DNA of 19,626 nt from Clostridiales bacterium (GTDB lineage: Bacteria; Bacillota_A; Clostridia; Saccharofermentanales; Saccharofermentanaceae), in NCBI GenBank assembly GCA_017649745.1, contig JAGCGE010000039.1, positions 1 to 19,626 of the forward strand, given 5' to 3'. Within the stretch, counting starts at the first letter, position 1; every line of letters begins with the position of its first letter. The notes beneath the pieces are model-generated. The model did not search any database and was not told the DNA's origin. It saw only the letters and a program-made list of their open reading frames with translations. The translations under genes were made by a program, and so were the position numbers. This document shows, piece by piece, positions 1 through 16,025 of the stretch.

Positions 1-1
1 G

Positions 2-358
2 AGCAACCGTACGATCGAACTTCCGCAATTTCTCTGTGACGAGATGCAAGATTACTTTGATTCGATCTACAAACTCGACAACAACAGCCGGCTCTTTCCT
101 TTCAGCAAGTATTTTCTTCTTCACGAGATGGATCGGGGAGCGAAAGCGGCCGGCGTGAAGCGGATCCGGATCCATGATCTGAGACATTCGAGTTGTGCGC
201 TTCTGATCGAACTCGGGTATTCGCCGATTCAGATTGCCGAAAGATTGGGTCACGAATGCAGCACCGTTACAGAGCGGTATTCACATTTGTATCCGTCGGT
301 ACAGAGAAAAATGGCCGACAAACTAAACGAAACCTTTTTGACACCGAGGGAGGCATGA
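2..358 (+). CDS. Tyrosine recombinase/integrase, C-terminal part (5' end outside window)
   Basis: The reading frame is open from base 2, so the gene begins upstream of the window and only about 118 C-terminal residues are visible. The catalytic part of a phage-type tyrosine integrase is clear: a DLRHSS box (Arg-His pair), then a LGH box, then TERYSHL with the nucleophilic Tyr. Family knowledge: such enzymes integrate and excise mobile elements through a 3'-phosphotyrosine intermediate. The next gene starts 3 bases after the stop and uses the GGGAGG inside the end of this gene as its ribosome site, so integrase and mobilization genes are probably one transcript. This supports an integrative mobilizable element rather than a prophage. 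The core-binding and arm-binding domains are not visible, so the subfamily cannot be told. Confidence 0.9.
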   Translation, partial: SNRTIELPQFLCDEMQDYFDSIYKLDNNSRLFPFSKYFLLHEMDRGAKAAGVKRIRIHDLRHSSCALLIELGYSPIQIAERLGHECSTVTERYSHLYPSVQRKMADKLNETFLTPREA

Positions 359-360
359 AC

Positions 361-723
361 ATGGGAAAGTATTTCGGAAATACCAAGAAGCAGAAGCTGT
401 CTGTGAAGAAGAAAAAGAACGAAAACAACCGGCGCAGAAAAGTCATCGTGAACTTTCGGGTCAGCCCATGCGAGAAGGAATTGATCGATGCCCGCATAGC
501 TCAATCCGGACTGATGCGATCGACATATTTCATCGAGAGCTGTCTCTACCAGAAGGTTCTTGTAAAAGGAAACATCCGCTCCTTCTCGGCTATCAGAGTG
601 ACACTTCAGGAGTTATCCGAAAAGATCGAACAGAATCCCGATCTGACACAACTGGATCCGGCCGATGCGGAGCGGATCAGGATCATCCTTCAGATGATCG
701 ATTATCTATTCGAAGGGAGGTGA
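361..723 (+). CDS. mobC: MobC-like mobilization accessory (relaxosome) protein
   Basis: This 121-residue basic protein has a Lys/Arg-rich N-terminus (residues 9-25), then a segment reading KVIVNFRVSPCEKELI with a helix-rich remainder. That is the usual look of ribbon-helix-helix MobC-like proteins, which bind oriT and help the relaxase nick. The start at 361 is chosen because GGGAGG (348-353) lies 7 bases upstream; the ATG at 355 is only 1 base from it. The gene sits between an integrase and a DUF3847-like gene, with the oriT and relaxase following, which is the usual order in Firmicutes MobQ elements. The RHH fold is inferred from pattern, not from a profile search. Confidence 0.75.
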   Translation: MGKYFGNTKKQKLSVKKKKNENNRRRKVIVNFRVSPCEKELIDARIAQSGLMRSTYFIESCLYQKVLVKGNIRSFSAIRVTLQELSEKIEQNPDLTQLDPADAERIRIILQMIDYLFEGR

Positions 724-727
724 GAAC

Positions 728-1021
728 ATGGCACAGAAATCGTATGAAGAACGTATTGCGGAGCTTCAAAAGAAACAGGAACAACTCGAAGCACAGAAGC
801 GGGCGCTTCAGAAAAAGCAGTCTGAAGAGGATCGCAAGAAGCGCACCAGACGACTGATCGAACTTGGAGGAATCGTGGAGTCGGTGCTCGGAAGGCCGAC
901 CACCGACGAAGATAAAATCCGGCTTCTGAATTTCCTGAACCGACAGGAGAAGAACGGATGTTTCTTCACCAAAGCGATGAACGAACAGATCCCCGGAGGT
1001 GAGAAAAGTGTTGAAGGTTAA
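728..1021 (+). CDS. DUF3847-like small mobilization-module protein
   Basis: This 97-residue protein begins with an Arg/Lys/Glu/Gln-rich coiled coil (residues 5-40), followed by a short conserved-looking block reading RRLIELGGIVESVLG, and a C-terminal helical part. The layout resembles the DUF3847 family, small proteins found beside MobA/MobL relaxases in Clostridia. The family name is from memory. Their function is unestablished; a relaxosome role is plausible. The gene starts 4 bases after mobC, with GGGAGG just upstream of the ATG, so it is translated from the same message. The stop at 1019-1021 leads directly into the oriT region. Confidence 0.65.
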   Translation: MAQKSYEERIAELQKKQEQLEAQKRALQKKQSEEDRKKRTRRLIELGGIVESVLGRPTTDEDKIRLLNFLNRQEKNGCFFTKAMNEQIPGGEKSVEG

Positions 1022-1027
1022 GAGAAC

Positions 1028-1084
1028 CCTCCCCAATTCCCTTAACTTGTTAAGGGCGCACTTATATGTGGGCGGAGCCCACAT
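1028..1084 (-). other. oriT: Origin of transfer (oriT), MobQ type, with nick core and adjoining inverted repeat
   Basis: On the minus strand, bases 1064 to 1053 read TAAGTGCGCCCT. This is the core of the RSF1010/MobQ nick region, where the relaxase is known to cut between G and C (TAAGTGCG/CCCT). By analogy the cut falls between 1057 and 1056 on the minus strand. Directly beyond it lies a perfect inverted repeat, CCCTTAAC-TT-GTTAAGGG (1039-1056), the usual relaxase recognition hairpin. The site sits between the accessory genes and the MobA/MobL relaxase, as expected. The core match and position are seen; the nick position is inferred. Confidence 0.85.
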
Positions 1085-1209
1085 CCAAGCGCGCTCTCCG
1101 AGGGGGGCTTATGCAGCCAGCACCAAAGGACTTTGTCCTTGTGGAATCCTACAAGGACGCTTCGCTCCTTGACCTGGACCAAGTTTCACTTGGATGGAGT
1201 CCTGCGGAC
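1066..1209 (+). repeat. Tandem series of short hairpins upstream of the relaxase gene
   Basis: Six short inverted repeats follow one another between the oriT core and the relaxase: ATGTGGGC-gga-GCCCACAT (1066-1084), GGCT-tatgc-AGCC (1106-1118), AAGGAC-ttt-GTCCTT (1126-1140), CAAGGA-cgcttcgc-TCCTTG (1152-1171), CCAAGT-ttc-ACTTGG (1179-1193) and GTCC-tgc-GGAC (1199-1209). Four have three-base loops. No open frame of note uses the stretch. They could fold in the single-stranded transfer intermediate, or in the 5' leader of the relaxase mRNA. The repeats are directly visible; their role is unknown. Confidence 0.75.
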
Positions 1210-1256
1210 GGCGCTTAATCTCGCAACAGCACATCACAAGAAAGGAGGCATGCTTT

Positions 1257-2759
1257 ATGTCAATATACCATTGCTCGATAAAGATCATCAGCCGTGCGGG
1301 TGGCCGATCCGCTGTGGCTTCTGCTGCATACAGATCCGGCGAGAAGCTGTATAACGGCGAGACCGGCATGACACGCGACTTTACCCGTAAGGGCGGAGTC
1401 ATCATGAGCGAGATCCTTCTTCCGGAAAATGCACCGGAGCGGTTTTCGAACCGTGAGGTTCTGTGGAATGAAGTCCAGCAGATCGAAAAGAGATCGGATG
1501 CACAATTCGCACGTGAGATCGAAGTCGCTCTTCCATCTGAAATGGCAAGAGAGGATCAGATCGAATGTATCCGGAGTTATATCCGGGACAACTTTGTTTC
1601 TGAGGGCATGATCGCAGACTGGGCACTTCATGACAAGGGAGACGGAAATCCTCATGCACACATCCTGCTGACGCTCCGCGGGATTGATGAACATGAGAAG
1701 TGGCTTCAGAAACAGAAGACGGTTTTTGCTAACAGTAGAGATGAAAAAGGACGACCGGTCTATGATCCGTCTCTTCCGTCCTATGATCCGAAAAACAAAG
1801 AAAAGACTTCGAAGTATCGGATACCGCAACTGGACAAAGACGGGAACCAGAAAGTCCGTATCCGGGAAGGAAAAGGAACCGAATACCTGTGGGAAAAGAT
1901 TTCGATTCCCGCGAATGACTGGAATGAACACACGAAGGCAGAACAGTGGAGAGCATCCTGGGCAGAACACTGTAACAGATATCTCAAACCGGAACAGATG
2001 ATCGATCACAGAAGTTATGAAAGACAGGGAATAGAAAAGGAACCCACGATCCACGAGGGAGTCGTGGCAAGACAGATGGAAAAAGAAGGAAAGAACGCAG
2101 AAAGGTGTCAGATCAACCGTGAGATCCGGGAACGGAATTCGATACGGGAACAGATAAGAAAGATAGCATCGGAGATCACGAAACTGGTCGCCGAGAAAGT
2201 GAGGAACATATATGAACGATATAAAGAACTTAGAAGAACTATTGGAAATCCTGAAGGCTCAGGAAGAGATGCAGGAGATCCTGGAAAAGCAGCAGGCGGA
2301 AATCGAGGAACTCTATCAGATAAAGAATTCCTTGGAAGAGCAGCTGGAAGAATCACTGCAATTAAACGAGCAACTCACGAAGCAGAACAGGAAATTGCAG
2401 GAACAGATACACGAATTGCAAAACTAAGAGAAGCGATACACGAAAAGGAGGTAAAGATCCATGAACGATTCAGAAAACTACAAGACAGAAGATCTTCTCG
2501 ACATGATGGAGAAGATGCAGGACCAACTGGGAGCACAGATACAGAAATACTCCGATGCACTCGAGACGATATCGAGTCTTTCCTCGGAGAACTTGAAGCT
2601 CAGGAACGAGCTTCAGAGGAAAAGCGATACCATAGTCTCCTTGAACGGAAAGATCGAGACGCTGAGCAAGAGCGATCTCAATCTGAAGAAGAGCAAGGAG
2701 ATACTCGAAGCAGGGATGAAAGCCAAGAGCGAAGCCGAGGCTATGAGATCAGCCTGTGA
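1257..2759 (+). CDS. MobA/MobL-family (MobQ) conjugative relaxase
   Basis: This 500-residue protein starts MSIYHCSIKIISR and continues GRSAVASAAYRSGEKL, the classic MobA/MobL N-terminus. Tyr25 in AAYRSG is the candidate nicking tyrosine. The metal-binding His motif is HDKGDGNPHAHILL (residues 125-138). The family nicks one strand at oriT and pilots it into the recipient using another element's secretion channel. The start at 1257 follows AAAGGAGG (1241-1248) by 8 bases; longer in-frame starts add residues lacking family similarity. From about residue 320 (base 2215 on) the tail becomes low-complexity, rich in Arg, Glu, Gly and Ser. There the DNA is also read in a second frame by the two following genes. 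The recognised relaxase domain lies in the first 250 residues, so the tail is probably dispensable for catalysis. Confidence 0.92.
   Translation: MSIYHCSIKIISRAGGRSAVASAAYRSGEKLYNGETGMTRDFTRKGGVIMSEILLPENAPERFSNREVLWNEVQQIEKRSDAQFAREIEVALPSEMAREDQIECIRSYIRDNFVSEGMIADWALHDKGDGNPHAHILLTLRGIDEHEKWLQKQKTVFANSRDEKGRPVYDPSLPSYDPKNKEKTSKYRIPQLDKDGNQKVRIREGKGTEYLWEKISIPANDWNEHTKAEQWRASWAEHCNRYLKPEQMIDHRSYERQGIEKEPTIHEGVVARQMEKEGKNAERCQINREIRERNSIREQIRKIASEITKLVAEKVRNIYERYKELRRTIGNPEGSGRDAGDPGKAAGGNRGTLSDKEFLGRAAGRITAIKRATHEAEQEIAGTDTRIAKLREAIHEKEVKIHERFRKLQDRRSSRHDGEDAGPTGSTDTEILRCTRDDIESFLGELEAQERASEEKRYHSLLERKDRDAEQERSQSEEEQGDTRSRDESQERSRGYEISL
2212..2427 (+). CDS. Small coiled-coil protein nested out of frame inside the relaxase gene
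   Basis: This 71-residue frame lies wholly within the relaxase gene in the +1 frame. It is almost pure heptad-like coiled coil: Leu/Ile at regular spacing with Glu, Gln and Lys between (for example LEELLEILKAQEEM and NSLEEQLEESLQL). A possible ribosome site, GTGAGG, lies about 7 bases before the ATG. The frame is the same as that of the downstream membrane protein gene, which starts 34 bases after its stop. The regular heptads argue it is real, while the overlapping relaxase tail looks like an out-of-frame reading of it. Translation is inferred. A partner role for the relaxase or membrane protein is possible but not shown. Confidence 0.55.
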   Translation: MNDIKNLEELLEILKAQEEMQEILEKQQAEIEELYQIKNSLEEQLEESLQLNEQLTKQNRKLQEQIHELQN

Positions 2760-3486
2760 GGAAGAGAGAAAAACTCTTAATGAGAAAAAGTCAGAACTGG
2801 ATGCTCGGGAGAGGAAAGAAAGCAGTTGCGAAGCCAACCTCTCCCGAGAGATCACTACAAAAGCTGAAGAAATCACAAAAGAAAAGAGAGAGAGCCTCGA
2901 ACAAGAGTATAAGAAACGCAGAAATGAGATGGAAAGCAGTTACGAAAAAAGAGAATCTCTTCTTTCCAACCAATATAAGAAAATGACCGTAGCACACAAG
3001 GCCGAATTCACGGCCTTGCTACTCTACGGTCTGATATCCACAGTGATGCAGGTCCTGACTACACCAATAATAGTCGAAGAGTTTATTTCTTTCTTCCGCG
3101 GCTTGTGGAATGGAGTGACAGGTTATTTCCACCTTGCGAATAACGCAGGGAAGGGTATGGCCAGTATTGCAGACTATATCTCCAATCCTTCCGCTTCCAC
3201 GATTCTACACGGACTCCTGTATATAGTCGTGGCCGGAACGATAATCGGAGTAGCCGGACTCGGAATACTCTACATTGGTTTCGCATATTGGGACTATTTG
3301 CATGAAAGTCTATGGGACAGATATACGGTGATTGCCATTGTTGTGATTCTTGCCGTTACGCTCTTTCTTTCGGAAGAGTTCTCAAGCATGCTACCACTAA
3401 ATCTACTTCTGATTCAGATACTGGTGTTCCTTGTATATTCAGGAGTAAGAGCGTGGATACATCACAAGAAAGAGACTGAGAACTAA
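2461..3486 (+). CDS. Coiled-coil membrane protein of the mobilization module (DUF6040-like)
   Basis: This 341-residue protein has a long N-terminal coiled coil (about residues 5-175, rich in Glu, Lys and Ser with spaced Leu). A membrane domain follows, with hydrophobic stretches near residues 182-205, 248-275, 289-306 and 310-331, and a short basic tail. A strong AAAAGGAGG lies about 8 bases before the ATG. The first 299 bases overlap the relaxase 3' end in another frame. Similar proteins, which I recall as DUF6040, sit next to MobA/MobL relaxases in Clostridia; the family name is from memory. A role in linking the relaxosome to the membrane or to a coupling protein is inference. No Walker motifs are present, so it is not itself a coupling ATPase. 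Confidence 0.75.
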   Translation: MNDSENYKTEDLLDMMEKMQDQLGAQIQKYSDALETISSLSSENLKLRNELQRKSDTIVSLNGKIETLSKSDLNLKKSKEILEAGMKAKSEAEAMRSACEEERKTLNEKKSELDARERKESSCEANLSREITTKAEEITKEKRESLEQEYKKRRNEMESSYEKRESLLSNQYKKMTVAHKAEFTALLLYGLISTVMQVLTTPIIVEEFISFFRGLWNGVTGYFHLANNAGKGMASIADYISNPSASTILHGLLYIVVAGTIIGVAGLGILYIGFAYWDYLHESLWDRYTVIAIVVILAVTLFLSEEFSSMLPLNLLLIQILVFLVYSGVRAWIHHKKETEN

Positions 3487-3526
3487 TTACAGAAAAATCA
3501 TTTCAGTTATGATTCTAGAAACTCTC

Positions 3527-3560
3527 TTGACAAGTAATTAAGAGATGTTTTTTATAGAAT
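3527..3560 (+). promoter_or_regulatory. Candidate promoter for agrA-agrC
   Basis: A consensus -35 box TTGACA (3527-3532) precedes the AT-rich stretch TTTTTTATAGAAT. The -10 could be TTTTAT (3550-3555, 17-bp spacer) or TATAGA (3553-3558, 20-bp spacer); neither is ideal. A 6-bp inverted repeat AATCAT-ttcagtt-ATGATT lies just upstream (3497-3515). This is the only promoter-like sequence between the membrane protein gene and agrA. Confidence 0.4.
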
Positions 3561-3586
3561 ATGACGATGGTTTTATGGGGGTAGAC

Positions 3587-4315
3587 ATGTTTCGAATAGC
3601 GCTTTGTGATGACAACCGGTCTTTTTTGGAATATGAAAGTGTTGTAATTTACGGCCATTTGACAGAGAAAGATGTGCTTTGTCAATGTGATACTTTTATA
3701 TCTGGGGAGGAACTTCTGGCAAAGGGCATACTTATCAAGAATTATGATTTGTTCATTTTGGACTATGATATGGATGGACTTACCGGATTTGAAGCCGCAC
3801 GGAAAATATACGAAATATATCCTGACGCAAAGATAGCTTTTGCAACCAATTACTATGACTTTACCCGAGAAGGTTATAGGTATAACGCGGTACGATATCT
3901 TGTCAAGCAGGAGAAAACATTTGAATCTGAACTAAAAGAGTGCGTGGATCTTCTTTTTGAAAAGGAGCCTAAGAAAACAATCGTTATAGAATTACGCGAT
4001 GGAAATAAAGAACTTAATATCGATGAAATAGTGTATATTAGAAGTGATAAGCATTATATCAGGTTTTTCATCAAAGACAGGGATTCGACATATTTTGAGC
4101 GGCGATGCAGCCTCGATGACATCCAAGCAGAATTACCTCAATACTTCGTCAGAATTCATCAACGGTTCATAATCAATCTTAAGTACGTAGATAACATTCA
4201 GCGATATGAGTTAACAATACCGAAGAGTGATGGCAAACCGTTAAAGTTTCCGATTTCGAGAAATAGATACGATGATGTTAATGAGAAGTATTGTTTGATG
4301 AAGGGAAAGTTCTAA
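3587..4315 (+). CDS. agrA: AgrA-type LytTR response regulator
   Basis: This 242-residue protein has a receiver domain (residues 1-120) with the acidic pair Asp8-Asp9 in ALCDDN and the phosphoacceptor Asp59 in LFILDYDMDG. A LytTR DNA-binding domain follows (about 135-240), with blocks such as EIVYIRSDKHYIRF and FVRIHQRFIINLKYVDNI. LytTR regulators bind pairs of direct repeats and control quorum-sensing and exoprotein genes. The start at 3587 has GGGGG (3577-3581) 5 bases upstream and gives the normal receiver N-terminus; upstream in-frame ATGs at 3545 and 3575 would add an unusual leader. The sensor kinase gene begins at the very next base after the stop, so the pair is co-translated. The kinase and AgrB next door make this the regulator of an agr circuit. 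Confidence 0.92.
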   Translation: MFRIALCDDNRSFLEYESVVIYGHLTEKDVLCQCDTFISGEELLAKGILIKNYDLFILDYDMDGLTGFEAARKIYEIYPDAKIAFATNYYDFTREGYRYNAVRYLVKQEKTFESELKECVDLLFEKEPKKTIVIELRDGNKELNIDEIVYIRSDKHYIRFFIKDRDSTYFERRCSLDDIQAELPQYFVRIHQRFIINLKYVDNIQRYELTIPKSDGKPLKFPISRNRYDDVNEKYCLMKGKF

Positions 4316-5605
4316 ATGATCTACAGCATTATAAATACAGTTGGATATGTTATTTTGGCTCAAATATTCTGCTCGGCCTTTATTGAGCGAGAAGAGATGT
4401 CTGCATTCTTTAGTGGAATGACTACGATTCTCTGGATAATTCTGGGATCTGCTGTTTCTATTCTTTTTGAAGAAGTGCTGGTTATTCGAATCATTTTAGC
4501 TATTATGCTTAACATTCTGTTCTTTTTGATTCTCTATAAAAAGAACAGATTAGTGAAGACCTTAGCTGTTGCAATATTATTCTATGTGACGGGATTGTCC
4601 TGCGAGATTCTTGTGGTTGCTATTCACAAGTATTTTGATCCTGAATTAAAGATTGAAAAACTGATGGATAGCGAAATATACGTGTACATGGGTGTTGTAA
4701 GCCAGTTTATTGAACTTATCGTTGTTTTTATCATTCGGAAAATCTTCCGCAAAGTGAGAACTGCCAAAATAGAATCGAAATTATGGATGATCTATACTAT
4801 TTTCCCTCTGTATTCTGTAAGCTTAGTTGTCCTGTTAGGGTATAGCTTTGATGGTCCCATCAGTTTTTCTCAAGCCAATGCGTTTACATATATAGCGAGT
4901 TCACTTTTGCTGATAAACCTGTTCATATATTGGTTTATACAGCAAGAATCGAGACGAGCTCTTGATGTGCAGAAAAATGATATTGAAATAGCTCATGCTG
5001 AGGGTATTGTTCAGTTATACGACCAAATAACTAAAGAACGCGATGTTCTGGGGAAACGGGAACATGAATTTAAGAATACAATTTCTGCGCTTCAGGGGCT
5101 ATATGCTAATAAGCAATATGACAAAATGGGGGAGATTCTCGGTGTTCAGAATACCGAACTGATCAACAATACCAATGTGTTTGAAACAGGAAACCGGCTG
5201 ATAAACACGATTCTTAATACGAAATATGTTGAGGCAAGGGAAAAAGACATCACTTTTAGGTTTGTTATTAATGATCTCTCAAAGTTGATAATCGCAGATC
5301 GAGATTGTATAGTGATTCTTTCTAATATGCTCAACAATGCTATCGAAGCCGCTGAGAAATGCCCTGAGGGACACAGAATCCTATTCGTCAAAGCAGTAAT
5401 TGAGGGCGGTAAGTTTATCTTTGCTTGTCGGAATTCGTACATAAATGACCTCGATCCGGAAATGAGAAGCAAAAAGAAAGATGTAGTGTCTCATGGGTAT
5501 GGGATAGAGAACGTAAAAGAAGCAGTAAATCGTAATAAAGGAAGTTGTATCTTTAGTAAAGAGGGACAGGAATTTGTTGCAGTAGTTATTCTCCCGATAG
5601 GATAA
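4316..5605 (+). CDS. agrC: AgrC-type sensor histidine kinase (GHKL/HATPase_c_5 family)
   Basis: This 429-residue protein starts with about six hydrophobic segments (residues 5-210), forming a polytopic sensor. A linker helix leads to the phospho-acceptor region EHEFKNTISALQ, with His250 the candidate. The ATP-binding domain shows an N box, NMLNNAIEAAEKC (residues 337-349), and a G box, HGYGIENVKEA (393-403). This is the AgrC/ComD layout, in which the membrane domain senses a cyclic autoinducer peptide and signals to the LytTR regulator. The start abuts the agrA stop with no gap. The 182-base gap that follows carries the agrB promoter. The ligand is presumably the product of the agrD-like gene at 6362; that pairing is inferred from position. 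Confidence 0.92.
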   Translation: MIYSIINTVGYVILAQIFCSAFIEREEMSAFFSGMTTILWIILGSAVSILFEEVLVIRIILAIMLNILFFLILYKKNRLVKTLAVAILFYVTGLSCEILVVAIHKYFDPELKIEKLMDSEIYVYMGVVSQFIELIVVFIIRKIFRKVRTAKIESKLWMIYTIFPLYSVSLVVLLGYSFDGPISFSQANAFTYIASSLLLINLFIYWFIQQESRRALDVQKNDIEIAHAEGIVQLYDQITKERDVLGKREHEFKNTISALQGLYANKQYDKMGEILGVQNTELINNTNVFETGNRLINTILNTKYVEAREKDITFRFVINDLSKLIIADRDCIVILSNMLNNAIEAAEKCPEGHRILFVKAVIEGGKFIFACRNSYINDLDPEMRSKKKDVVSHGYGIENVKEAVNRNKGSCIFSKEGQEFVAVVILPIG

Positions 5606-5683
5606 CTACAGGCAGTAACTAGTCTCTCTAGAAATGCATATAAATTAGTATAATTCCGGCTAAACCATCCCGGATTAGTGCAG

Positions 5684-5714
5684 TACTTGCCAAAATTTGA
5701 CCATACTTGCCAAA
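5684..5714 (+). promoter_or_regulatory. Direct repeat TACTTGCCAAA x2, candidate LytTR (AgrA) binding site
   Basis: The 11-mer TACTTGCCAAA occurs at 5684-5694 and again at 5704-5714. The period is exactly 20 bp, about two helical turns. LytTR regulators bind two direct repeats about two turns apart, usually 21-22 bp, upstream of weak promoters. The site lies in the agrC-agrB gap, about 38 bp above an extended -10. The repeat sequence is not a clear match to the staphylococcal AgrA box, so the assignment rests on geometry and context. Confidence 0.6.
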
Positions 5715-5748
5715 TACTGTTTTTGCTATTCATTTCATCAAAATCATG

Positions 5749-5757
5749 TGCTATACA
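5749..5757 (+). promoter_or_regulatory. Extended -10 promoter of agrB-agrD
   Basis: TGCTATACA (5749-5757) is an extended -10 box (TG-n-TATACA). No good -35 lies 17 bp upstream (TTCATT at best), as expected for an activator-dependent promoter. Transcription would start near 5764, giving a leader of about 24 bases before the agrB ATG at 5788, with AAGGAG at 5776-5781. Confidence 0.5.
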
Positions 5758-5787
5758 GTACTTAGATTTAGATGAAAGGAGAAGCAA

Positions 5788-6423
5788 ATGGAGCAGGTTG
5801 CGACGAAAATAGTGACCAAGATGGTGTCAGCCGATTTGATATCAGAAGAAGAATCTGATCTTTATAACTATGGTGTTCAGGTTATACTCGAAAAGGTCAT
5901 TTCCTATGCCATCTTTTTTGTGTTGGCTATGATTATGCACAAGCTCTTGGAAATCTTACTATTCTTCGTTTCCTTCTCAATTCTCAGGAAGTATAGTGGC
6001 GGTATCCATTGCAAGACCTTTAAGTCTTGTTTGATTATTTCTGCCCTTGTGTCTTTTTCTGGTATGATGCTTCTGCCGATTGTTGAACATAACAAATTAT
6101 TATATCAAGGGGGGGTTGTGATGTCAATAGTTGTTTTGATTATTCTTGGCTCCATCAACAACCCCAATATAGATTGGAGCGATTGCGAGTATAGAAGTGC
6201 GAGAAGACTAGCCAGAACAATAGCAATTTTTGAATTGTCGGTTTTGCTCTTGTTGGCAGTCTTGAATACCCCAATCAGAATTCGGTTCTTTATCAGCTAC
6301 GGAATCGTTGTTTGTGCGATTTCGATGCTGTTAGAAATACGAAAGAGAGGGGGTATAGCATATGAAGAGTGCAGAGAGACAGATCTTGAAGGCGGTGAAA
6401 GCAGCTGCAAAGAAGCAGACTGA
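5788..6423 (+). CDS. agrB: AgrB-family peptide-processing membrane endopeptidase
   Basis: This 211-residue protein has several hydrophobic segments and the AgrB catalytic signature RKYSGGIHCKTFKSC: Arg67, Gly71-Gly72, catalytic His74 and Cys81. In Staphylococcus the His and Cys cut the AgrD precursor at its C-terminal side and form the thiolactone. Length and topology match the family (around 190-210 residues). AAGGAG sits 6 bases before the start. The last 20 codons overlap, in another frame, the start of the agrD-like gene; this region encodes a polar tail (residues about 190-211) after the last membrane helix. It has its own promoter, separate from agrA-agrC. Confidence 0.95.
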   Translation: MEQVATKIVTKMVSADLISEEESDLYNYGVQVILEKVISYAIFFVLAMIMHKLLEILLFFVSFSILRKYSGGIHCKTFKSCLIISALVSFSGMMLLPIVEHNKLLYQGGVVMSIVVLIILGSINNPNIDWSDCEYRSARRLARTIAIFELSVLLLLAVLNTPIRIRFFISYGIVVCAISMLLEIRKRGGIAYEECRETDLEGGESSCKEAD

Positions 6424-6481
6424 TCCGAAGATTCCGGGATGTTTGATTCTTTATCACCAGCCGAAAAGACCGAAGAAGTAA
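6362..6481 (+). CDS. agrD: AgrD-like cyclic autoinducer peptide precursor (39 aa)
   Basis: The frame is ATG at 6362 to TAA at 6479-6481, overlapping agrB by 62 bases in a different frame. A purine-rich GAGAGGGGG lies about 9 bases upstream. The product has an amphipathic Lys/Ala-rich N-terminal helix (residues 1-19), then a short DPKIPG spacer, then CLILY (residues 27-31), then a charged tail HQPKRPKK. The layout follows AgrD: leader helix, Cys-started hydrophobic core, polar tail removed by AgrB. From memory, the Clostridium perfringens precursor has CLWFT followed by HQPEEPK, so core and tail align closely. The predicted signal is a five-residue thiolactone between Cys27 and Tyr31, possibly with N-terminal exocyclic residues. 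The leader is less hydrophobic than in staphylococci. Confidence 0.88.
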   Translation: MKSAERQILKAVKAAAKKQTDPKIPGCLILYHQPKRPKK

Positions 6482-6501
6482 GAAGTGGACAAACTGAATA
6501 G

Positions 6502-6644: not shown

Positions 6645-7166
6645 ATGAAAAAGAAATGGTTGAGTATTCTTTGTGCTATGATCATCGTTTGCAGCGCGAT
6701 GGGAACCGTCAGTGCAGGATCTCCACATGATTCTTCAAGCACTTTTTTGCGAGGACTTCATATTCCTACACTGTCTTACACGATCAGCAGTAAAATAGGC
6801 TGCAGTTATTCATTCGGTGCGGCTGGCCCTGACAGTTTTGACTGTAGTGGTCTAGTATGGTACACCTACTACTTGCAAGATGGCATCCCGTTGGGAAGCA
6901 CGCATGGTTCAGCGGAGATCGCACAGTACTTGAACGGGAAAGGGGCAAGTTGTACAAGCTCCTCGTTAATGGGTTATGACTTGATTTTTTATGACCTTAG
7001 TACGAGTAACGATAATAAATTCCTCAAAATAGATCACGTTGCTATCTATATAAACGATTCCAACGGTGTGCTTGCTGAAGCCAGACCCTCTTATGGAGTG
7101 GTATACTCCTCTTATCGACGCAATCAGAGTAAAGAGGTCTTTTATGCAGATCCGTTTGTCACATAA
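6645..7166 (+). CDS. Secreted NlpC/P60-family peptidoglycan hydrolase
   Basis: This 173-residue protein has a signal peptide (MKKKWLSIL..., hydrophobic to residue 22, likely cut after VSA at residue 24) and a single NlpC/P60 domain. Catalytic Cys67 lies in SFDCSGLVWY, and His131 in KIDHVAIYI; the third polar residue is not certain. The family cleaves peptide stems of peptidoglycan (D-Glu/diaminopimelate type bonds). There is no cell-wall binding repeat, so it is a minimal secreted enzyme. AGGAGG lies 8 bases before the start. It is the first of five genes for exported proteins on one strand and follows agrD by 163 bases with no terminator seen. A role in remodelling or lysing cell wall on a quorum signal is inference. 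Confidence 0.88.
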   Translation: MKKKWLSILCAMIIVCSAMGTVSAGSPHDSSSTFLRGLHIPTLSYTISSKIGCSYSFGAAGPDSFDCSGLVWYTYYLQDGIPLGSTHGSAEIAQYLNGKGASCTSSSLMGYDLIFYDLSTSNDNKFLKIDHVAIYINDSNGVLAEARPSYGVVYSSYRRNQSKEVFYADPFVT

Positions 7167-7206: not shown

Positions 7207-9426
7207 ATGTCAAGATTTCGGAAAACGATAATCTCCATATTGATACTGGGAGTTCTTCTGGGATCGTCATGCAAAAAAACGAGCAGAAAACCTGTTGAGG
7301 AATCCTCCTTTCTTTCTCCTTATTACTCGACAGAGAATACAATTCTTTCTATTCCTCACGAAGTTGATGCGGGTTTCTCCGGGAATCTGATGTTTGTTCA
7401 GACATATTATGAGTCCGAATCGTATCTGAAAGCTCATCGAGAGCAATGCATTCCGAAATTTGGTGATAAAGCAGATACCCAGTACTCTTATCTCCCTTTC
7501 GATGAACAGGGAGAAGTGTTGACGCCGGAGAATAATCTTCTGGTACTAAATGACAATGGAGAAACCACGAAATCATACGATCTAAATAAAGAATGCGGAA
7601 CTTCGGATTCTTATCGTCGTATGCTTTGCTGTGAGGATGGCTGCTGGGTATTGAGCCGTAAGGCTGATGCCGTTTTTGGCATTATAGAGTATGATCTGGA
7701 TCTGATTCACCCGGAAGATGGCGTGAAGAAACATGTTGTATTAGATTTGAATCCGGCGGAAGTTAATATTCTGGGTTTAGCAGCATATAAAGATGATCAA
7801 GTAGCGCTTTCCTGCTGGAAGCAGAACGCAAGGTTGATTCTGATTGACGAAGCAGGACATATAGAGAAAGAGATAGATCTCCCTGAAAGAGTGGAATCCA
7901 ACGCTGTTTATTTCAAGGGACAGTGGACTTGCATCGGTTGCGGAGAATCGGGAGAAACTATTCTCTTCAGTTATGATGAGGGGAAAAGCCGATGGGAAGA
8001 AACTCCTGTTGAATTACCGGTATACAGAACAATCATGGTTCGTGGAGAAAAACTCTTCGGAATCAATTCGCGTGGGATTGCTCAGATAAACGTGAAGACC
8101 CCGACAACGCTCTTATGGGAAGATGTTTCTGTATGGGGGACGGTTCAAGACATTAAAATCCTCGAGAATGGAAAGTTAGATTTAGTTACCCGACCTTTGA
8201 GTGAGGATATAATTGTCAGGTATCGATTGAGTCCGGCAGAGAAAAAGAATCTTCAGAGCAAGGAAGAATTTGTTATTGCAGGATATGATCTTGAGAATAG
8301 CTGTGTGAATCAGCTGATTCAGGAGATGAGTATTCGACATCCGGAAATCAAGTTTGTCTTGCGAGACTACAAAGACGAAATCAATGCGACAGAAGAAAAC
8401 TGGGTTCAGGCAAAAAAAGAGATTTCTACAATAATGAGTCTGGATCTGGCCAATGGAACCGCACCGGATATGTACTATGATCTTTATGATGATTTTGCAT
8501 TGGATGAGATGGGAAGACTTGGATATCTTAAAGATCTTGAACCAGTGATTTCAAAACTCAACAATGACGATTATTTCGTTGACAAAATCACATTGGGAGA
8601 AGAGACTCCGTATTGTGCCTGTCTCTACTTCGATGTAATTGGTTTCTGTGCATCAGATAAATATGTGCAGAATCCGTATACATGGACTTATGATGACTTC
8701 TATAAGAGTGCGGAGAATTATGATGATCTTTCCGGGATCCAGAGTATCTTTTCGAAGCAGTATCTGTTGAAACATGCAGTAATGGCACAGATCGATAAGT
8801 TTATCAAGGATGGAAAAGCATACTTTACCGGAGATGATTTCCTTAAACTATTAAAGTGGACAAAAGACATCGGATGCAGAAGTAACTGGGATGATTATGT
8901 CTCTCCGGATCTGGATAATGGATACTATATGCTGGATTGGGCAGATATCACTTCACTGGGATCTGTGTTTATGTATCAGGATCATGTCATAGTCGGTTTC
9001 CCGAACGAGAATGGATCACTTCATGTAGTTCCTTATTGCCTGTTAGCGATTTCAGCTACCACATCAAAAACAGATCTGGCATATGAAATTATAGAATATG
9101 CTTTGGGTGAGGATTTTCAGTCGAAGAATTATCAATTGCAAAGTGGTATCTCAGTGAATTGCAAGTGCTGTGAACAGCGGATGGAGAAGGATTATGCAAC
9201 ATATTCAGAAGTGGATAGCAATAGTATGCGATTCAGTAAAGAGGAATACTACGAAATGTTTAATACTCTGATCAGAAGAGCAGATCGCTACTTGCACGGA
9301 AGTCAATCGATTGTTGATATTTGCCTCGAGGAAGCATCGGCATATTATTCCGGTGATATATCTGCGGAACATGCAGCTGAATTGATACAAAGTCGCGTAA
9401 CCCTATATTTGCAGGAATCTAAATGA
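7207..9426 (+). CDS. Large lipoprotein: propeller-like N-terminal part plus extracellular solute-binding domain
   Basis: This 739-residue protein starts with a lipoprotein-type signal ending LGSSC (Cys22), a slightly irregular lipobox. Residues about 60-345 are rich in short beta-strand units, with turns such as LNDNGETTKSYDL and LIDEAGHIEKEIDL, resembling a beta-propeller. From about 355 on (FVIAGYDLENSCVNQLIQEM, LANGTAPDMYYDLYDD) it looks like a type-1 extracellular solute-binding protein. Such proteins normally deliver ligands to an ABC importer, yet no permease or ATPase gene is nearby. GAGGAGG lies 6 bases before the start. It could bind a sugar or peptide, or act as a sensor; substrate unknown. 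The fold of the N-terminal part is inferred from pattern only. Confidence 0.8.
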   Translation: MSRFRKTIISILILGVLLGSSCKKTSRKPVEESSFLSPYYSTENTILSIPHEVDAGFSGNLMFVQTYYESESYLKAHREQCIPKFGDKADTQYSYLPFDEQGEVLTPENNLLVLNDNGETTKSYDLNKECGTSDSYRRMLCCEDGCWVLSRKADAVFGIIEYDLDLIHPEDGVKKHVVLDLNPAEVNILGLAAYKDDQVALSCWKQNARLILIDEAGHIEKEIDLPERVESNAVYFKGQWTCIGCGESGETILFSYDEGKSRWEETPVELPVYRTIMVRGEKLFGINSRGIAQINVKTPTTLLWEDVSVWGTVQDIKILENGKLDLVTRPLSEDIIVRYRLSPAEKKNLQSKEEFVIAGYDLENSCVNQLIQEMSIRHPEIKFVLRDYKDEINATEENWVQAKKEISTIMSLDLANGTAPDMYYDLYDDFALDEMGRLGYLKDLEPVISKLNNDDYFVDKITLGEETPYCACLYFDVIGFCASDKYVQNPYTWTYDDFYKSAENYDDLSGIQSIFSKQYLLKHAVMAQIDKFIKDGKAYFTGDDFLKLLKWTKDIGCRSNWDDYVSPDLDNGYYMLDWADITSLGSVFMYQDHVIVGFPNENGSLHVVPYCLLAISATTSKTDLAYEIIEYALGEDFQSKNYQLQSGISVNCKCCEQRMEKDYATYSEVDSNSMRFSKEEYYEMFNTLIRRADRYLHGSQSIVDICLEEASAYYSGDISAEHAAELIQSRVTLYLQESK

Positions 9427-9445
9427 TTTTTCGGAGGTGAATAAA

Positions 9446-10117
9446 ATGAAAAAGGTAAATGCCGCATTGATAGTTGTAATTGTATCTCTTGCAGCAATGA
9501 CAATCGGATGCCAATCATCCAAGAAAGATAAAGAATCCGGTAGCGAGCCATCTGAAACGTCTATTTCCTTAACAGAAGAATCTTCATCAGCAGAGACTGA
9601 AGATGCAAAGACTTCTAGTTCGGAGGACACTTCTGCTACTACGGAATCTACAACTGAGAATACGAAGATATCTTCTGAGACCTTGGAGAGCAGCTTGCTG
9701 ATCAAAAATGCCGAAGAAATGGAGGCAGCCTTTCTGGAGGCTTGTAAAGATTCCATTGAACCGGTAATAGAAAAGGATCCGACCGAGAAAAACACGATAC
9801 GATCCTATGGCACTAATACGGTACATATATTATTCCGAGTCCATACTGATGCTGATGCTGCCCGAGCTGCTATTTGCGAAACAATAAGCTACGGTGGCTG
9901 GTATGAAGAAGACTGTGTTGTAAAAGAGATCAAGATAGATGAGGCTCCGCTATTCCTTCAGGCATTCTATTGCAAGACGCCCGATGGCGCAGATATGCTG
10001 TTTGTCTTAGGATACAACGATACGGTTTCCTTCGCGATGGAAGGCCATGATACCGCTCATGTCGAGAATATAGAAAAGATTCTTATCGCTATGGGGATTG
10101 ATCTTAAGTCAATGTAA
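9446..10117 (+). CDS. Putative lipoprotein with Ser/Thr/Glu-rich spacer
   Basis: This 223-residue protein opens MKKVNAALIVVIVSLAAMTIGC, a lipoprotein signal with lipobox TIGC (Cys22). A long Ser/Thr/Glu-rich linker follows (about residues 23-80), typical of a spacer reaching out from the membrane. A globular C-terminal domain (about 85-223) contains two Cys-bearing segments (AICETISYGGWYEEDCVV and AFYCKTPDGADM). I do not recognise the domain. GGAGG (9433-9437) sits 8 bases before ATG 9446, preferred over the GTG at 9437. It follows the solute-binding lipoprotein by 19 bases, so they are co-transcribed. Confidence 0.75.
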   Translation: MKKVNAALIVVIVSLAAMTIGCQSSKKDKESGSEPSETSISLTEESSSAETEDAKTSSSEDTSATTESTTENTKISSETLESSLLIKNAEEMEAAFLEACKDSIEPVIEKDPTEKNTIRSYGTNTVHILFRVHTDADAARAAICETISYGGWYEEDCVVKEIKIDEAPLFLQAFYCKTPDGADMLFVLGYNDTVSFAMEGHDTAHVENIEKILIAMGIDLKSM

Positions 10118-10134
10118 TGATAGGAGATAGAATA

Positions 10135-10704
10135 ATGAAACGGAAGCTATGTGGAGTTGTTCTTTCTGTAGTTACACTTTTCAGTATATCGTCATGTTCA
10201 GTCCACAATACTGCCAGTGATATGACTACAGAGACGGCTATCACCGGATCAATGCAAAGTGAAATAGAAAGACAAGTTTCTCAAGAAATAGGTGATAGAT
10301 TACACGGTTCCCTTTTTGTTGAGATTCCGTATGAGGAAAGCTATAGTCAAATTGAAGTGAGCACTTCCAAAGCAATATACAAGAGTAAAGAAACTCGTAT
10401 TGAATGTAATATTATTAATCATAACAGGGGACATGGGTTCTGGTTTTGCTGGATACCGTTTGTTGAGAGAAGAGAAAGAAGTGAGTGGAAGCCCGTAGAG
10501 TTCAAAAGGGAGTTTCTTGAAGGAAGTTGCGATTACTATGCGTTTTGTGCTATTCCCGATTATCCTGATAGTGAATTCTCTACCATGGTGCTGTTAGATA
10601 CTGAAAAAGCATATAAGGATAAATATCTGCCCGAAGGACAATACCGATTTAAGGTCTATGTGGGAAAGGAGATTTTTTATGCGGAATTTGAAATCAAGGA
10701 TTAG
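10135..10704 (+). CDS. Putative lipoprotein with Ig-like beta domain
   Basis: This 189-residue protein starts MKRKLCGVVLSVV and has a lipobox-like ISSC (Cys21). Residues about 70-189 alternate short hydrophobic strands (IEVSTSKAIYKSKETRIECNI, YRFKVYVGKEIFYAEFEI) and end in a typical beta-sandwich closing strand. This resembles bacterial Ig-like domains found in lipoproteins. TAGGAG (10121-10126) lies 8 bases before 10135; the in-frame ATG at 10117 has no such site. The 3' end overlaps the protease start by 26 bases, giving translational coupling. Function is unknown; partnership with the protease is plausible from the overlap. Confidence 0.7.
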   Translation: MKRKLCGVVLSVVTLFSISSCSVHNTASDMTTETAITGSMQSEIERQVSQEIGDRLHGSLFVEIPYEESYSQIEVSTSKAIYKSKETRIECNIINHNRGHGFWFCWIPFVERRERSEWKPVEFKREFLEGSCDYYAFCAIPDYPDSEFSTMVLLDTEKAYKDKYLPEGQYRFKVYVGKEIFYAEFEIKD

Positions 10705-11587
10705 CAGATCCTTCGTACTAGTTGTAGCCTGCGTACTTATATCATCACTTGGGTTTTCGAAAGTACATGCAGAAGAAGACGAATGCCACGACTCGAATGC
10801 TGATGTATTTGAAATGTTGTCATATGACGCCAAAACAGGCAGCACCTATATTAGCTACTTTAAAAATGTGGTTAAAGATCCTGATGTAGAGCTTGTATCA
10901 CCGGCTAACTGTGACGTTCCGATTGAGAATCAACAATTGAGATCTCCAACACCACTATCTCATGTTAGCAATGCAAATATCTCACCATATTACAATGTAG
11001 TGATGTGCCGTAATGGGTTTGATATTGATAATAATGGTGTAATTGAAACATGGACCATAACCTCTGGTGCATTTGTATACAACGATCTGGTTTTTACATG
11101 TGCACATGGTATTTATTGGTACGCGCAATCCAAAACGGCAAATGTGGTACAAGTATATAAAGCACTCAACTCTTCAAGTCTTCCAAATACATATTATTCT
11201 TTGTCAGGATGGCATATACCAACACAGTTCACCTCAAGTGCAGATTCTGACTATGATTGGGCAGTTTTAGTTACTTCCTCTACAACGAGCACGTGGTTTG
11301 GTTACGGATATGCAAGTAATATATCCAATAAGTCAGTTAATTCCGCAGGTTATGTTGATCAGCCTTCATATTATTATCTTATGCAAGAGAGTCCGGGAAC
11401 GATGAGTAGTACTTCTTCGTATAGGTTTTCAAGTACAATGTACACAATTGGTGGACGTAGTGGATCAGCAGCATTTGATAGTAATGGAATCGTGTGGGGC
11501 GAGCTGCAAAGTCATATCAGTGGATATTATGGTTATGGTTGCCTTGTGACCAGTCAGGTCTATAGCGTTTTAGAAGCATTGAAATAA
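10679..11587 (+). CDS. Secreted chymotrypsin-fold serine protease (V8/glutamyl endopeptidase-like)
   Basis: This 302-residue protein has a signal peptide ending near KVHA (residue 31), a likely pro-region (about 32-95), then a trypsin-fold domain. The triad is visible: His143 in VFTCAHGIYW, Asp193 in SDYDWAVL, and Ser261 in GGRSGSAAFD. Motif spacing suits secreted V8-like peptidases of Firmicutes; cleavage specificity cannot be read. The start at 10679 has GGAAAGGAG 8 bases upstream; the ATG at 10658 adds seven residues with no site. It overlaps the lipoprotein gene before it and is the last gene of the exported-protein run. Staphylococcal V8 protease is regulated by agr, so the link to the upstream agr locus is suggestive, not shown. 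Confidence 0.85.
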   Translation: MRNLKSRISRSFVLVVACVLISSLGFSKVHAEEDECHDSNADVFEMLSYDAKTGSTYISYFKNVVKDPDVELVSPANCDVPIENQQLRSPTPLSHVSNANISPYYNVVMCRNGFDIDNNGVIETWTITSGAFVYNDLVFTCAHGIYWYAQSKTANVVQVYKALNSSSLPNTYYSLSGWHIPTQFTSSADSDYDWAVLVTSSTTSTWFGYGYASNISNKSVNSAGYVDQPSYYYLMQESPGTMSSTSSYRFSSTMYTIGGRSGSAAFDSNGIVWGELQSHISGYYGYGCLVTSQVYSVLEALK

Positions 11588-11777
11588 TGATATGATGCAA
11601 TGCTGTAATTGCGTGGAAGAATGAACCATATTAATCCTTGGGAAATTTAGTATATTATATATTAATTGATATACTTAAGGAGTTATCAAGTTATATGAAT
11701 AGAAACGTGCATAAGGCGCATATTTGTATTTTTGTTATCGATTTTAGTAAGCTTTCTCTAATAGCTTGATCTATTAT

Positions 11778-11857: not shown

Positions 11858-13381
11858 ATGGCAATTCCAATCACAATAGAAAAGCTATTATCTGAAAACA
11901 TTGTTGAATGGGCGAGAATAGAGTTTAAAGAAGGGTGGAATCCGGATACAACCCTGAAAACCATAAGTGCATTTGCAAATGATATAGATAACTGGGGTGG
12001 CGGTTATATTGTTGTAGGTGCAAAAGAGAAAGATGGGAAGGTTGTAAGACCAGTAAAAGGGATATCACCAGATTCTGTGGATAAAATACAAAAGGATATT
12101 CTTAGATATTGCAAATATCTAAGACCTGTATATATACCGCAAACGGAACCGGTGTGGTTTGATGGGAAACTACTTCTATTAATTTGGTGTCCAGGCGGAT
12201 ATGAAAGACCATATGCATGCCCTAAGTCACCGGATATGAAGAACAGTGAGAAAATATACTATATTCGCAAGTTATCCAGCACGATTGAAGCTACTGATTT
12301 AGATGTTAAGGAGTTAATGTCGTTAACACATAACGTCCCGTTTGATGATCGTATTAATCCCAAAGCTGAAATGAAGGATCTAAAGTACCCGATCATTAGA
12401 AATTACCTGCAGAATGTAAACAGTAGCTTAATTAACGACATTGATAACCTGGATACGGTTCAAATCGCAAAGGATTTACGAATTGCAGATGGGCCAACGG
12501 AATACTATAAGCCATTGAATGTCGGATTACTTTTCTTCAATGATCACCCGGAGTCCTATTTTCCATATTGCCAAATAGAGGTAGTTAATATCCCTGATCC
12601 AACAGGCCAAGGCATGGAAGAACGCATTTTCACAGGACCTATAGATCAACAGTTACGCGATGCTCTTGCCTACATAAAGAACAATGTAATTGCAGAGAAA
12701 ATATTTAAGATCGCAGGACAGGCGGAAGCTGTAAGAGTAAAGAACTATAGTTATGAGGCGATTGAGGAATTCTTATCAAATGCTATATATCATAAATCTT
12801 ATCAGATCCATGAACCTGTTACAGTAAGAATAGAAACAGATAAGATCGAAATTACTAGCACCCCGGGACCGGACAGATCTATTACGGATGATGATATCCG
12901 AAATTATCAAATGAGAACGAGAAGATACAGAAATAGAAGAATAGGCGATTTCCTCAAAGAATTGCATCTTGTAGAAGGAAGGAACACGGGTATTCCTACT
13001 GCTATAAGAGCAATAAAGGAAAATGGTTCTCCGTTACCATTGCTGCTTACCGACGAAGAACGATCTTTTTTCTCTGTAATCATTCCAATACACGAAGCGT
13101 TTATGCAAGAAAAGAATATTCAGAATAATTCTGATGCTGGTGTTGACAAGATGGTGCAAAAACGCAGATCGAAAGACCAGATCAAAGCACTAATACTAGA
13201 AGAGTTGTCAAAGGAAAGTGTATCGACTAATGAGTTATACAAGAGATTAGGTTATTCCGGTAACGCCTCTAAAACATTTAGGGAATGTGTAGAGGAATTG
13301 ATTGCCGAAGAGAAAGTGAGGTATGCTACTGAATCATTAAGAGATTCAAGCAATACATTAATAATGTACAGAAGTATTTGA
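11858..13381 (+). CDS. AlbA_2/Schlafen-domain protein with GHKL-type ATPase domain and winged helix
   Basis: This 507-residue protein begins with an AlbA_2 (Schlafen-type) domain (about residues 5-140) with the marks EFKEGWN and GGGYIVVGAKEKDG. The middle holds an ATPase-like part (about 295-415) with EAIEEFLSNAIYHKSY, VRIETDKIEITSTPGP and GRNTGIPTAIRAI, as in proteins annotated 'ATP-binding, RecG-related'. The C-terminal 75 residues look like a winged helix (QIKALILEELSKESVSTNELYKRLGY). Such proteins are taken to be regulators or defence-associated; the family biochemistry is unsettled. It could bind its own operator just upstream. A ClpP-fold protease gene follows 69 bases later with its own AAGGAGG and no terminator. 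Confidence 0.85.
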   Translation: MAIPITIEKLLSENIVEWARIEFKEGWNPDTTLKTISAFANDIDNWGGGYIVVGAKEKDGKVVRPVKGISPDSVDKIQKDILRYCKYLRPVYIPQTEPVWFDGKLLLLIWCPGGYERPYACPKSPDMKNSEKIYYIRKLSSTIEATDLDVKELMSLTHNVPFDDRINPKAEMKDLKYPIIRNYLQNVNSSLINDIDNLDTVQIAKDLRIADGPTEYYKPLNVGLLFFNDHPESYFPYCQIEVVNIPDPTGQGMEERIFTGPIDQQLRDALAYIKNNVIAEKIFKIAGQAEAVRVKNYSYEAIEEFLSNAIYHKSYQIHEPVTVRIETDKIEITSTPGPDRSITDDDIRNYQMRTRRYRNRRIGDFLKELHLVEGRNTGIPTAIRAIKENGSPLPLLLTDEERSFFSVIIPIHEAFMQEKNIQNNSDAGVDKMVQKRRSKDQIKALILEELSKESVSTNELYKRLGYSGNASKTFRECVEELIAEEKVRYATESLRDSSNTLIMYRSI

Positions 13382-15864: not shown

Positions 15865-15957
15865 TCTGAAATATGAGAAAACGACAGCATTTAATATATA
15901 TGTGAGATATAGCACTGTTAGTTGAAAAAGTGAGATAAAAGGATAAAGAGACAGCTT

Positions 15958-16008
15958 GTTTTATCTGGCGGAATTGTCAGTAAATTTGCGTTGACCGCTA
16001 AATAAAAC
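15958..16008. repeat. Palindromic element, upstream copy (GTTTTATCTGGCGG ... CCGCTAAATAAAAC)
   Basis: The left arm GTTTTATCTGGCGG (15958-15971) and right arm CCGCTAAATAAAAC (15995-16008) are inverted copies matching at 12 of 14 positions. The right arm overlaps the -35 box of the ATPase promoter. A similar palindrome stands just after the ATPase gene; the left arms TTTATCTGGCGGAAT and TTTATTTGGCGGAAT differ at one base of 15. It may be an operator or a mobile-unit end. Confidence 0.6.
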
Positions 16009-16019
16009 GGGTTTATAAT
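15991..16019 (+). promoter_or_regulatory. Sigma-A promoter of the AAA ATPase gene, apparently leaderless
   Basis: TTGACC (15991-15996), a 17-bp spacer and TATAAT (16014-16019) form a near-perfect promoter. Transcription should begin about 6-7 bases on, at 16025-16026, which coincides with the ATG at 16026. No Shine-Dalgarno sequence exists upstream. The gene is therefore probably read from a leaderless mRNA. Confidence 0.65.
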
Positions 16020-16025
16020 ATGTTT

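Follow-up and report, generated by a model that had tools for sequence, protein, structure and literature searches.

The frame at 6362..6481 on the forward strand is a real agrD within a complete agrA-agrC-agrB-agrD cassette, located in a 19,626-nucleotide contig of a Clostridiales bacterium (hereafter, the window), and its product is almost certainly the precursor of a signal. Taking all the evidence together, we consider it likely that this is an agr cassette carried by a mobilisable element in a gut lineage of Clostridia, combining autoinduction through an AgrA box with a contingency tract in agrB. The bacteria, which live in the gut, probably use the ring peptide derived from AgrD to gauge their own density.

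According to our proposal, AgrB would cut AgrD after Tyr31, at the tail HQPKRPKK, and join Cys27 to Tyr31 in a thiolactone ring of five residues. The exported peptide would be sensed by AgrC, and AgrA would activate the agrBD promoter through a 20-bp tandem repeat, resulting in autoinduction, with secreted and lipoprotein cargo being expressed by read-through or from further copies of the box. A one-base change in the G7/G8 contingency tract would truncate AgrB at about residue 110 (135-aa product) and stop signal making, leaving agrA and agrC intact; the window would represent the full-length (on) state. An off cell would keep its receptor and therefore could listen without talking, and its translation of agrD may fall too, because that of agrB stops upstream.

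The agrD gene, its cassette and its predicted peptide

All four genes are on the forward strand, in the order A-C-B-D. Gene agrA (3578..4315; the start codon is uncertain, the ORF opening at 3545) encodes a response regulator with a LytTR domain (PF04397, PF00072). It is followed by agrC (4316..5605), encoding a receptor histidine kinase with a GHKL domain (PF14501, E 1e-18), whose match to the AgrC model NF046015 was weak and far below cut-off, and whose hydrophobic N-terminal half is, by eye, a membrane sensor half. The 211-aa product of agrB (5788..6423; PF04647, E 8e-34) is a membrane peptidase/cyclase in which His74 and Cys81, expected to be the catalytic pair as in S. aureus AgrB, are invariant across 42 aligned AgrBs. 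None of 129 matches of the AgrB structure model to the PDB reached E ≤ 0.001, and a sequence search did not return a confident match either; likewise, no AgrB relatives were found in viral contigs, and those from plasmids were limited to three weak matches, none covering 80%.

The agrD frame spans 39 codons from its ATG and reads, stop included (6479-6481), MKSAERQILKAVKAAAKKQTDPKIPGCLILYHQPKRPKK; it is predicted to encode an autoinducing peptide precursor. As the first-pass annotation had claimed, it overlaps the end of agrB in a different frame, by 62 bases, and the Shine-Dalgarno-like sequence GAGAGGGG (6346..6353, forward strand) precedes its ATG at an ordinary distance. The NCBIfam model TIGR04223 (quorum_AgrD) matched the frame with 21.5 bits (curated cut-off 19, E 2e-4); Pfam gave no match at E ≤ 1. 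This score above cut-off, the agrB neighbourhood and the recurrence of the frame in relatives bear out its identification as AgrD. The frame had also been described as short enough to be missed, which is only partly true: five AgrDs from a large protein database are nameless, but NCBI's TIGR04223 does detect the window's frame.

Using the window AgrB as query against GTDB species genomes, we found eight loci. In seven of them agrD is a separate ORF, overlapping or just 3' of agrB (L003 and L005 having the same sequence), and in the eighth, L002, from the G038:C11 contig, it is fused in frame to agrB. Lack of conservation in relatives had been named beforehand as one outcome that could refute the gene, and the frame was conserved. 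The fusion in G038:C11 (L002/L010/L072) forms one 260-aa frame; database protein P0046 corresponds to the AgrB of this same contig in unfused form, and the fusion is therefore an indel variant, real or erroneous.

Alignment of eight AgrDs revealed 15 invariant columns (M1, E5, L9, K13, K17, D21, P25, C27, Y31, H32, Q33, P34, K35, R36 and P37), and with a profile of these eight sequences we detected AgrD in 12 genomes among 98 related ones, at E ≤ 0.01. The first-pass annotation had also suggested a pattern search of small ORFs near agrB homologues; run as C/S-x4-HQP[KR], it recovered 32 distinct AgrD frames, comprising all those with the pattern in our loci and five database proteins. These frames have the HQPKRP tail, a constancy that is partly imposed by the search pattern but is also seen in the eight aligned AgrDs, and between them 26 different cores, each of five residues with Cys or Ser in first place; AgrDs with a YQPKEPK tail (L023-L025, from the same bacterial family) fall outside the pattern and the 32.

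The first 18 residues of AgrD (6362..6415, forward strand) would form a basic amphipathic helix, with a net charge of +5 and a hydrophobic moment of 0.45 that is reached by 1.4% of shuffles; among six AgrDs scored in this way, L012 alone misses the 5% level. The charged leader had been considered distinctive, which is not so within the clade, as the five relatives scored alongside share the charge pattern. The predicted thiolactone ring, C27-L-I-L-Y31 (6440..6454), and the C-terminal recognition tail HQPKRPKK (6455..6478) follow on the same strand. Conservation of the Cys and the tail around a variable core, in the eight aligned and the 32 collected AgrDs, supports the earlier proposal that the ring starts at Cys27 and that HQPKRPKK is the tail, whereas the thiolactone and both cleavage points of AgrD are features that we infer from the family.

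The cores collected include CLILY, CISLY, CVTIY, CITFY, CISFY, CQVIY and CPYFF, and, among those of the Ser type, SPVIF and SPGLF; all 26 are ready candidates for AIP chemistry. Among the sequences compared, CLILY had no bearer other than the window and G001, whose AgrD is 97% identical. The Ser-for-Cys AgrDs (SPVIF, SPGLF) come from L021, L060, L111 and L015/L074 and keep the HQPKRP tail, a lactone being predicted for them instead of a thiolactone. The constant tail with a changing core looks like a signal group under receptor co-evolution. In each of the 39 AgrC pairs compared, conservation was lower in the sensor half than in the kinase half, and the sensor/kinase ratio was highest in the two pairs sharing a core (0.99 and 0.92), a weak support for co-divergence of core and receptor because one of these pairs is near-identical throughout.

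Compared with TIGR04223 AgrDs and clostridial five-residue AIPs, the window AgrD is alike in its leader helix, its Cys, replaced by Ser in some relatives, four residues ahead of the cleavage point, its basic, Pro-containing tail and the overlap with agrB, and differs in its CLILY core, its HQPKRPKK tail and a leader that is weakly hydrophobic on average. The first-pass annotation had likened its core and tail to those of the Clostridium perfringens type, CLWFT and HQPEEPK.

It is possible, although we favour the bare five-residue ring, that the mature peptide still carries a short tail (e.g. PG-CLILY), and so retains the thiolactone. Pro25, located two residues before Cys27, is invariant in the eight aligned AgrDs, and the part of PMC11297923 available to us describes conversion of bare pentameric thiolactones to a homodetic ring by S-to-N acyl shift, both of which are consistent with a tail; that same part reports tail-less pentamers for Listeria and other species, which argues for the bare ring. 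The computed [M+H]+ is 760.41 for PG-CLILY and 606.33 for the bare CLILY ring in both isomeric forms; given the rearrangement described in that text, mass alone therefore cannot separate the CLILY thiolactone from its isomer. In the accessible part of PMC5322536, the AgrD of C. thermocellum gives rise to a serine-lactone pentapeptide, thus sharing the five-residue ring, with Ser for Cys as in our relatives G008, G142 and G022, and differs from the window's in having no neighbouring agrB, agrC or agrA. That pentapeptide slows growth (PMC5322536, same part), and the cargo of the window's relatives includes an FtsX-type permease and an ABC ATPase beside a small secreted protein, but it is most improbable that the ring peptide acts as an antimicrobial or some other effector with no signalling role, since agrC and agrA are intact next door and the receptor halves diverge along with the core.

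The poly-G tract in agrB

Codons 107-110 of agrB read CAA GGG GGG GTT and contain a run of seven G (Gln107-GGG-GGG-G; 6109..6115, forward strand), a candidate phase-variation tract that is in the full-length frame in the window. AgrB is recurrently truncated exactly at this tract, as computation revealed in relatives whose frame breaks there to leave a product of about 135 aa. We distinguished 13 DNA tracts: four uninterrupted on frame (window, G001, L003 = L005 = G116, and G108), six uninterrupted off frame, and three with an interruption (G038 in the on frame, L006 = G130 in the off frame, and G045, which is on at the tract yet has another frameshift upstream of it). Some loci therefore look decayed, not switching. 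Alleles shifted by one base (G8; G8-G9 if a CAG codon is included) were found in L007, G036 = KHP2 (L008/L070), G043, G015, G008, G040 and G142, and the shifted tract in G008, G040 and G142 lies in AgrBs that are only about 28-37% identical to that of the window.

Among 74 database AgrBs, 13 were truncated at the tract, two were C-terminal halves and one was broken elsewhere; P0034 was classified by eye, and P0020, P0023 and P0054, in which the motif was outside the range of the script, look full length. A search with one truncated protein, a query that favours truncated alleles, returned 31 proteins that we classified by reading as 17 truncated at the tract, five truncated elsewhere and nine full length. 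Each allele is one assembled sequence, most being known as proteins alone, and individual consensus errors in MAGs are possible. In P0050, residues 1-107 are those of the window AgrB except for T10M, and the last 25 are those of the window's shifted frame past the G run. More generally, for 9 of 21 truncated alleles there is a full-length relative with at least 98% identity in the part before the tract, two of the nine sharing one relative. The Gly-Gly pair is absent from 11 of 53 classified full-length database AgrBs, and therefore the tract is not universal. In the AgrB model (mean pLDDT 82) the tract falls within helix 103-120, and truncation there removes the last two helices and keeps His74 and Cys81. 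A search for the tract pattern outside the family, in 391 class-wide genomes, returned nine places, five of them unlike agrB.

Both tract states thus occur in close relatives, and a change in length shifts the frame. On the AgrB tree, the 17 truncated rows need 15 changes compared with 15.6 after shuffling the labels, with on and off alleles scattered as though at random; this tree is weak, with 28 of 66 inner branches open and P0072 left out, and its starred branches alone force eight changes. In the shifted alleles, the original frame runs on past the tract for 75 codons free of stops (12 of 12 sequences), and its pN/pS (0.17-0.37 in 10 pairs, excluding L084, whose contig ends) is like that of the part before the tract (0.23-0.37), whereas the same DNA in the wrong frame gave 1.2-2.8 (three pairs). 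Additionally, GGG was the codon at 19 of 22 tract positions versus 3 of 22 at a neighbouring conserved Gly pair, across 11 loci (leaving out L021 and L026, which the control motif did not fit), a test that ignores shared ancestry and overstates the difference because the loci are related.

From these comparisons, the tract rather probably serves phase variation of signal production, and a reversible switch is on balance a likelier account of it than either programmed slippage or assembly error and decay. Programmed frameshifting, whereby ribosomal or transcriptional slippage would let G8 alleles still yield full-length AgrB at a set ratio and with no switching, seems unlikely to us. It would agree with the purifying selection on the downstream frame of G8 alleles, and G_GGG_GGG is a possible slippery sequence; nevertheless, both lengths are found among near-identical alleles, which is what switching predicts, some full-length relatives have an interrupted tract, and there is no consistent stimulatory structure 3' of the tract (z of -0.26, -0.20, -2.48 and +0.15 at four loci). 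Among the four loci folded, L007 folds better than shuffles downstream of the tract; a sense-strand frameshift structure past the tract was rejected, being inconsistent across the four loci.

We judge it equally improbable that assembly errors or the decay of genes, with no regulation, explain the truncated alleles. Metagenome assemblies are indeed among their sources, and some loci (L006, G045) contain further damage, but a single break site, seen in many independent clusters, accounts for 17 of the 22 truncated proteins in the 31-protein set, and the break is also present in KHP2 (L008), whose record is not titled MAG. Likewise, stops are not accumulating downstream, and GGG codons seem to be retained though synonyms would serve. 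The G run is very unlikely to be an internal Shine-Dalgarno sequence for a separate C-terminal half of AgrB: an ATG does lie 5-7 bases past it in the window and several relatives, and gene callers gave 118-aa C-terminal halves (P0067, P0068), but the ATG is replaced by ATA in L003 and L021 and the Met is missing in P0042.

Under the reversible switch that we prefer, we infer both reversibility in a living population and loss of AgrB function in the truncated state. The chances are about even for the broader reading, in which a poly-G talk/listen switch on mobilisable elements would let clonal gut populations hold signallers and silent listeners, with secreted cargo swapped immediately past the agrD stop. 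Mutants that are silent or blind to the signal tend to be seen as losers or cheats of accidental origin; if the switch is real, an agrB tract that recurs over large distances, with both lengths in near-identical alleles, would make signal production itself a bet-hedged trait.

There are precedents for slippage in homopolymers of agr genes. In S. aureus, agr is lost and regained via a poly(A) tract in agrA and a duplication-inversion in agrC, according to the text available from PMC6686034, and the accessible portion of PMC8768832 describes, for 114 genomes, a frameshift that recurs in a poly(A) close to where agrB ends. These cases are alike in the change of homopolymer length; as far as those texts go, S. 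aureus phase variants mostly involve poly(A) in agrA and the agrC rearrangement, whereas here a poly-G tract in the middle of agrB is polymorphic lineage-wide and recurs in AgrBs down to about 28% identity to that of the window. Rumen agr genes have been counted and hardly studied, the evidence being described as limited in the part of PMC10838665 available, and in the accessible text of the open-licence literature we found neither poly-G tracts in agrB nor the HQPKRP-tail AgrD group described.

The AgrA box, the cargo and the mobilisable element

Upstream of agrB, the sequence TACTTGCCAAA occurs twice, 20 bp apart (5684..5714, forward strand), and this tandem repeat is probably the AgrA (LytTR) binding site. 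Its unit, TTGCCnAA, is present twice at the 20-bp spacing in nine of nine aligned agrB upstream regions, and the pattern TTGCCnAA-N12-TTGCCnAA gave 20 sites, in 15 of 98 related genomes, compared with three for the reversed control pattern. Judging by their flanks, a reading of our own, 14 of the 20 sites are agr-type, seven of which precede agrB or a remnant of it and seven of which are elsewhere. A scan 5' of agrB detected no standard sigma-70 promoter; the site has instead the extended -10-like sequence TGCTATACA (5749..5757, forward strand), 35 nt past the second repeat. By script, an extended -10 (TG-n-TA) is at exactly 35 nt in 13 of 16 testable agr-type sites, one agr-type site being cut by a contig end, and by eye L065 has it at 35 nt too; it is missing at the common phase in two agr-type sites of G007 and was found there in none of six other sites.

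The boxes away from agrB include those preceding a 151-aa secreted protein and two lipoproteins in G001:C17 (L065), agrA and a lipoprotein in G019 (L067, one box each), and, in G035 (L063), a lipoprotein that shares its first residues with AgrB. Because the box also precedes cargo genes without agrBD in relatives, AgrA probably drives secreted-protein and lipoprotein cargo, and these sequences would thus define an AgrA-activated promoter with a small regulon of exported proteins. The lipoprotein gene in L063 (G035), at 2707-5118, starts with the first codons of agrB behind an agr promoter, and a second agrB remnant in the same locus (15900-17081) precedes another lipoprotein; from these sequences, the start of agrB seems to be a recombination joint.

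The system is like S. aureus agr (agrBDCA) in its four parts, its LytTR regulator and the tandem repeats upstream of agrB, which in staphylococci are about two helical turns apart; it differs in the gene order agrA-agrC-agrB-agrD, in the repeat unit TTGCCnAA, in the secreted cargo directly after agrD and in its location on a mobilisable element. The mobilisation backbone, identified with Pfam, comprises an integrase C-terminus (44-358), a NikA-like gene (340-723) and a MobA/MobL relaxase (1194-2759), all on the forward strand. No tRNA attachment site was found in the window or L066.

The cargo is on the forward strand as well, and a scan detected no terminator between agrD and its first gene (6645..7166), which encodes an NlpC/P60 cell-wall hydrolase-like protein (PF00877, E 2e-11) with, by eye, a signal peptide. 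The second (7207..9426) encodes a 739-aa lipoprotein from a large family, present in 14 of 23 loci, that is related to sugar-binding ABC proteins, its profile (11 members) matching CbpC (7x0o) with E 8e-35. These are followed by two lipoprotein-like ORFs (9437-10117 and 10117-10704) and a trypsin-like secreted protease (10658-11587; PF13365, E 2e-7). The window and G001 are 97% identical over positions 1-6482, from the integrase end through the mobilisation genes and agrACBD, and unrelated right after; similarly, the alignment with the window ends at 6479-6491 in all eight loci that reach agrD. Of 15 loci listed, 10 continue with a gene for a small protein (roughly 113-178 aa) that by eye carries a signal peptide, and the small secreted cargo proteins of relatives had no Pfam or NCBIfam match above cut-off. 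In L066 this place is taken by a gene for a large secreted protein that matches metallopeptidases weakly, and L075-L078 contain other genes after agrD.

In L007 (6790-10797), L069/L070, L072 and L079, the genes after agrD encode a small secreted protein that belongs to no known family, an FtsX-type permease or other membrane proteins, and an ABC ATPase, a layout that we take to resemble bacteriocin loci. At the end of the window's cargo, 153 bases (11598-11750) are 93% identical to positions 808-959 of L065, the unlinked AgrA-box cargo locus of G001. The SLFN_AlbA_2 gene of the window (11858-13381) shares 86% identity with a gene that likewise follows the agr cargo in L069/L070 and, as judged from this identity, is a second shared piece past the exchanged cargo.
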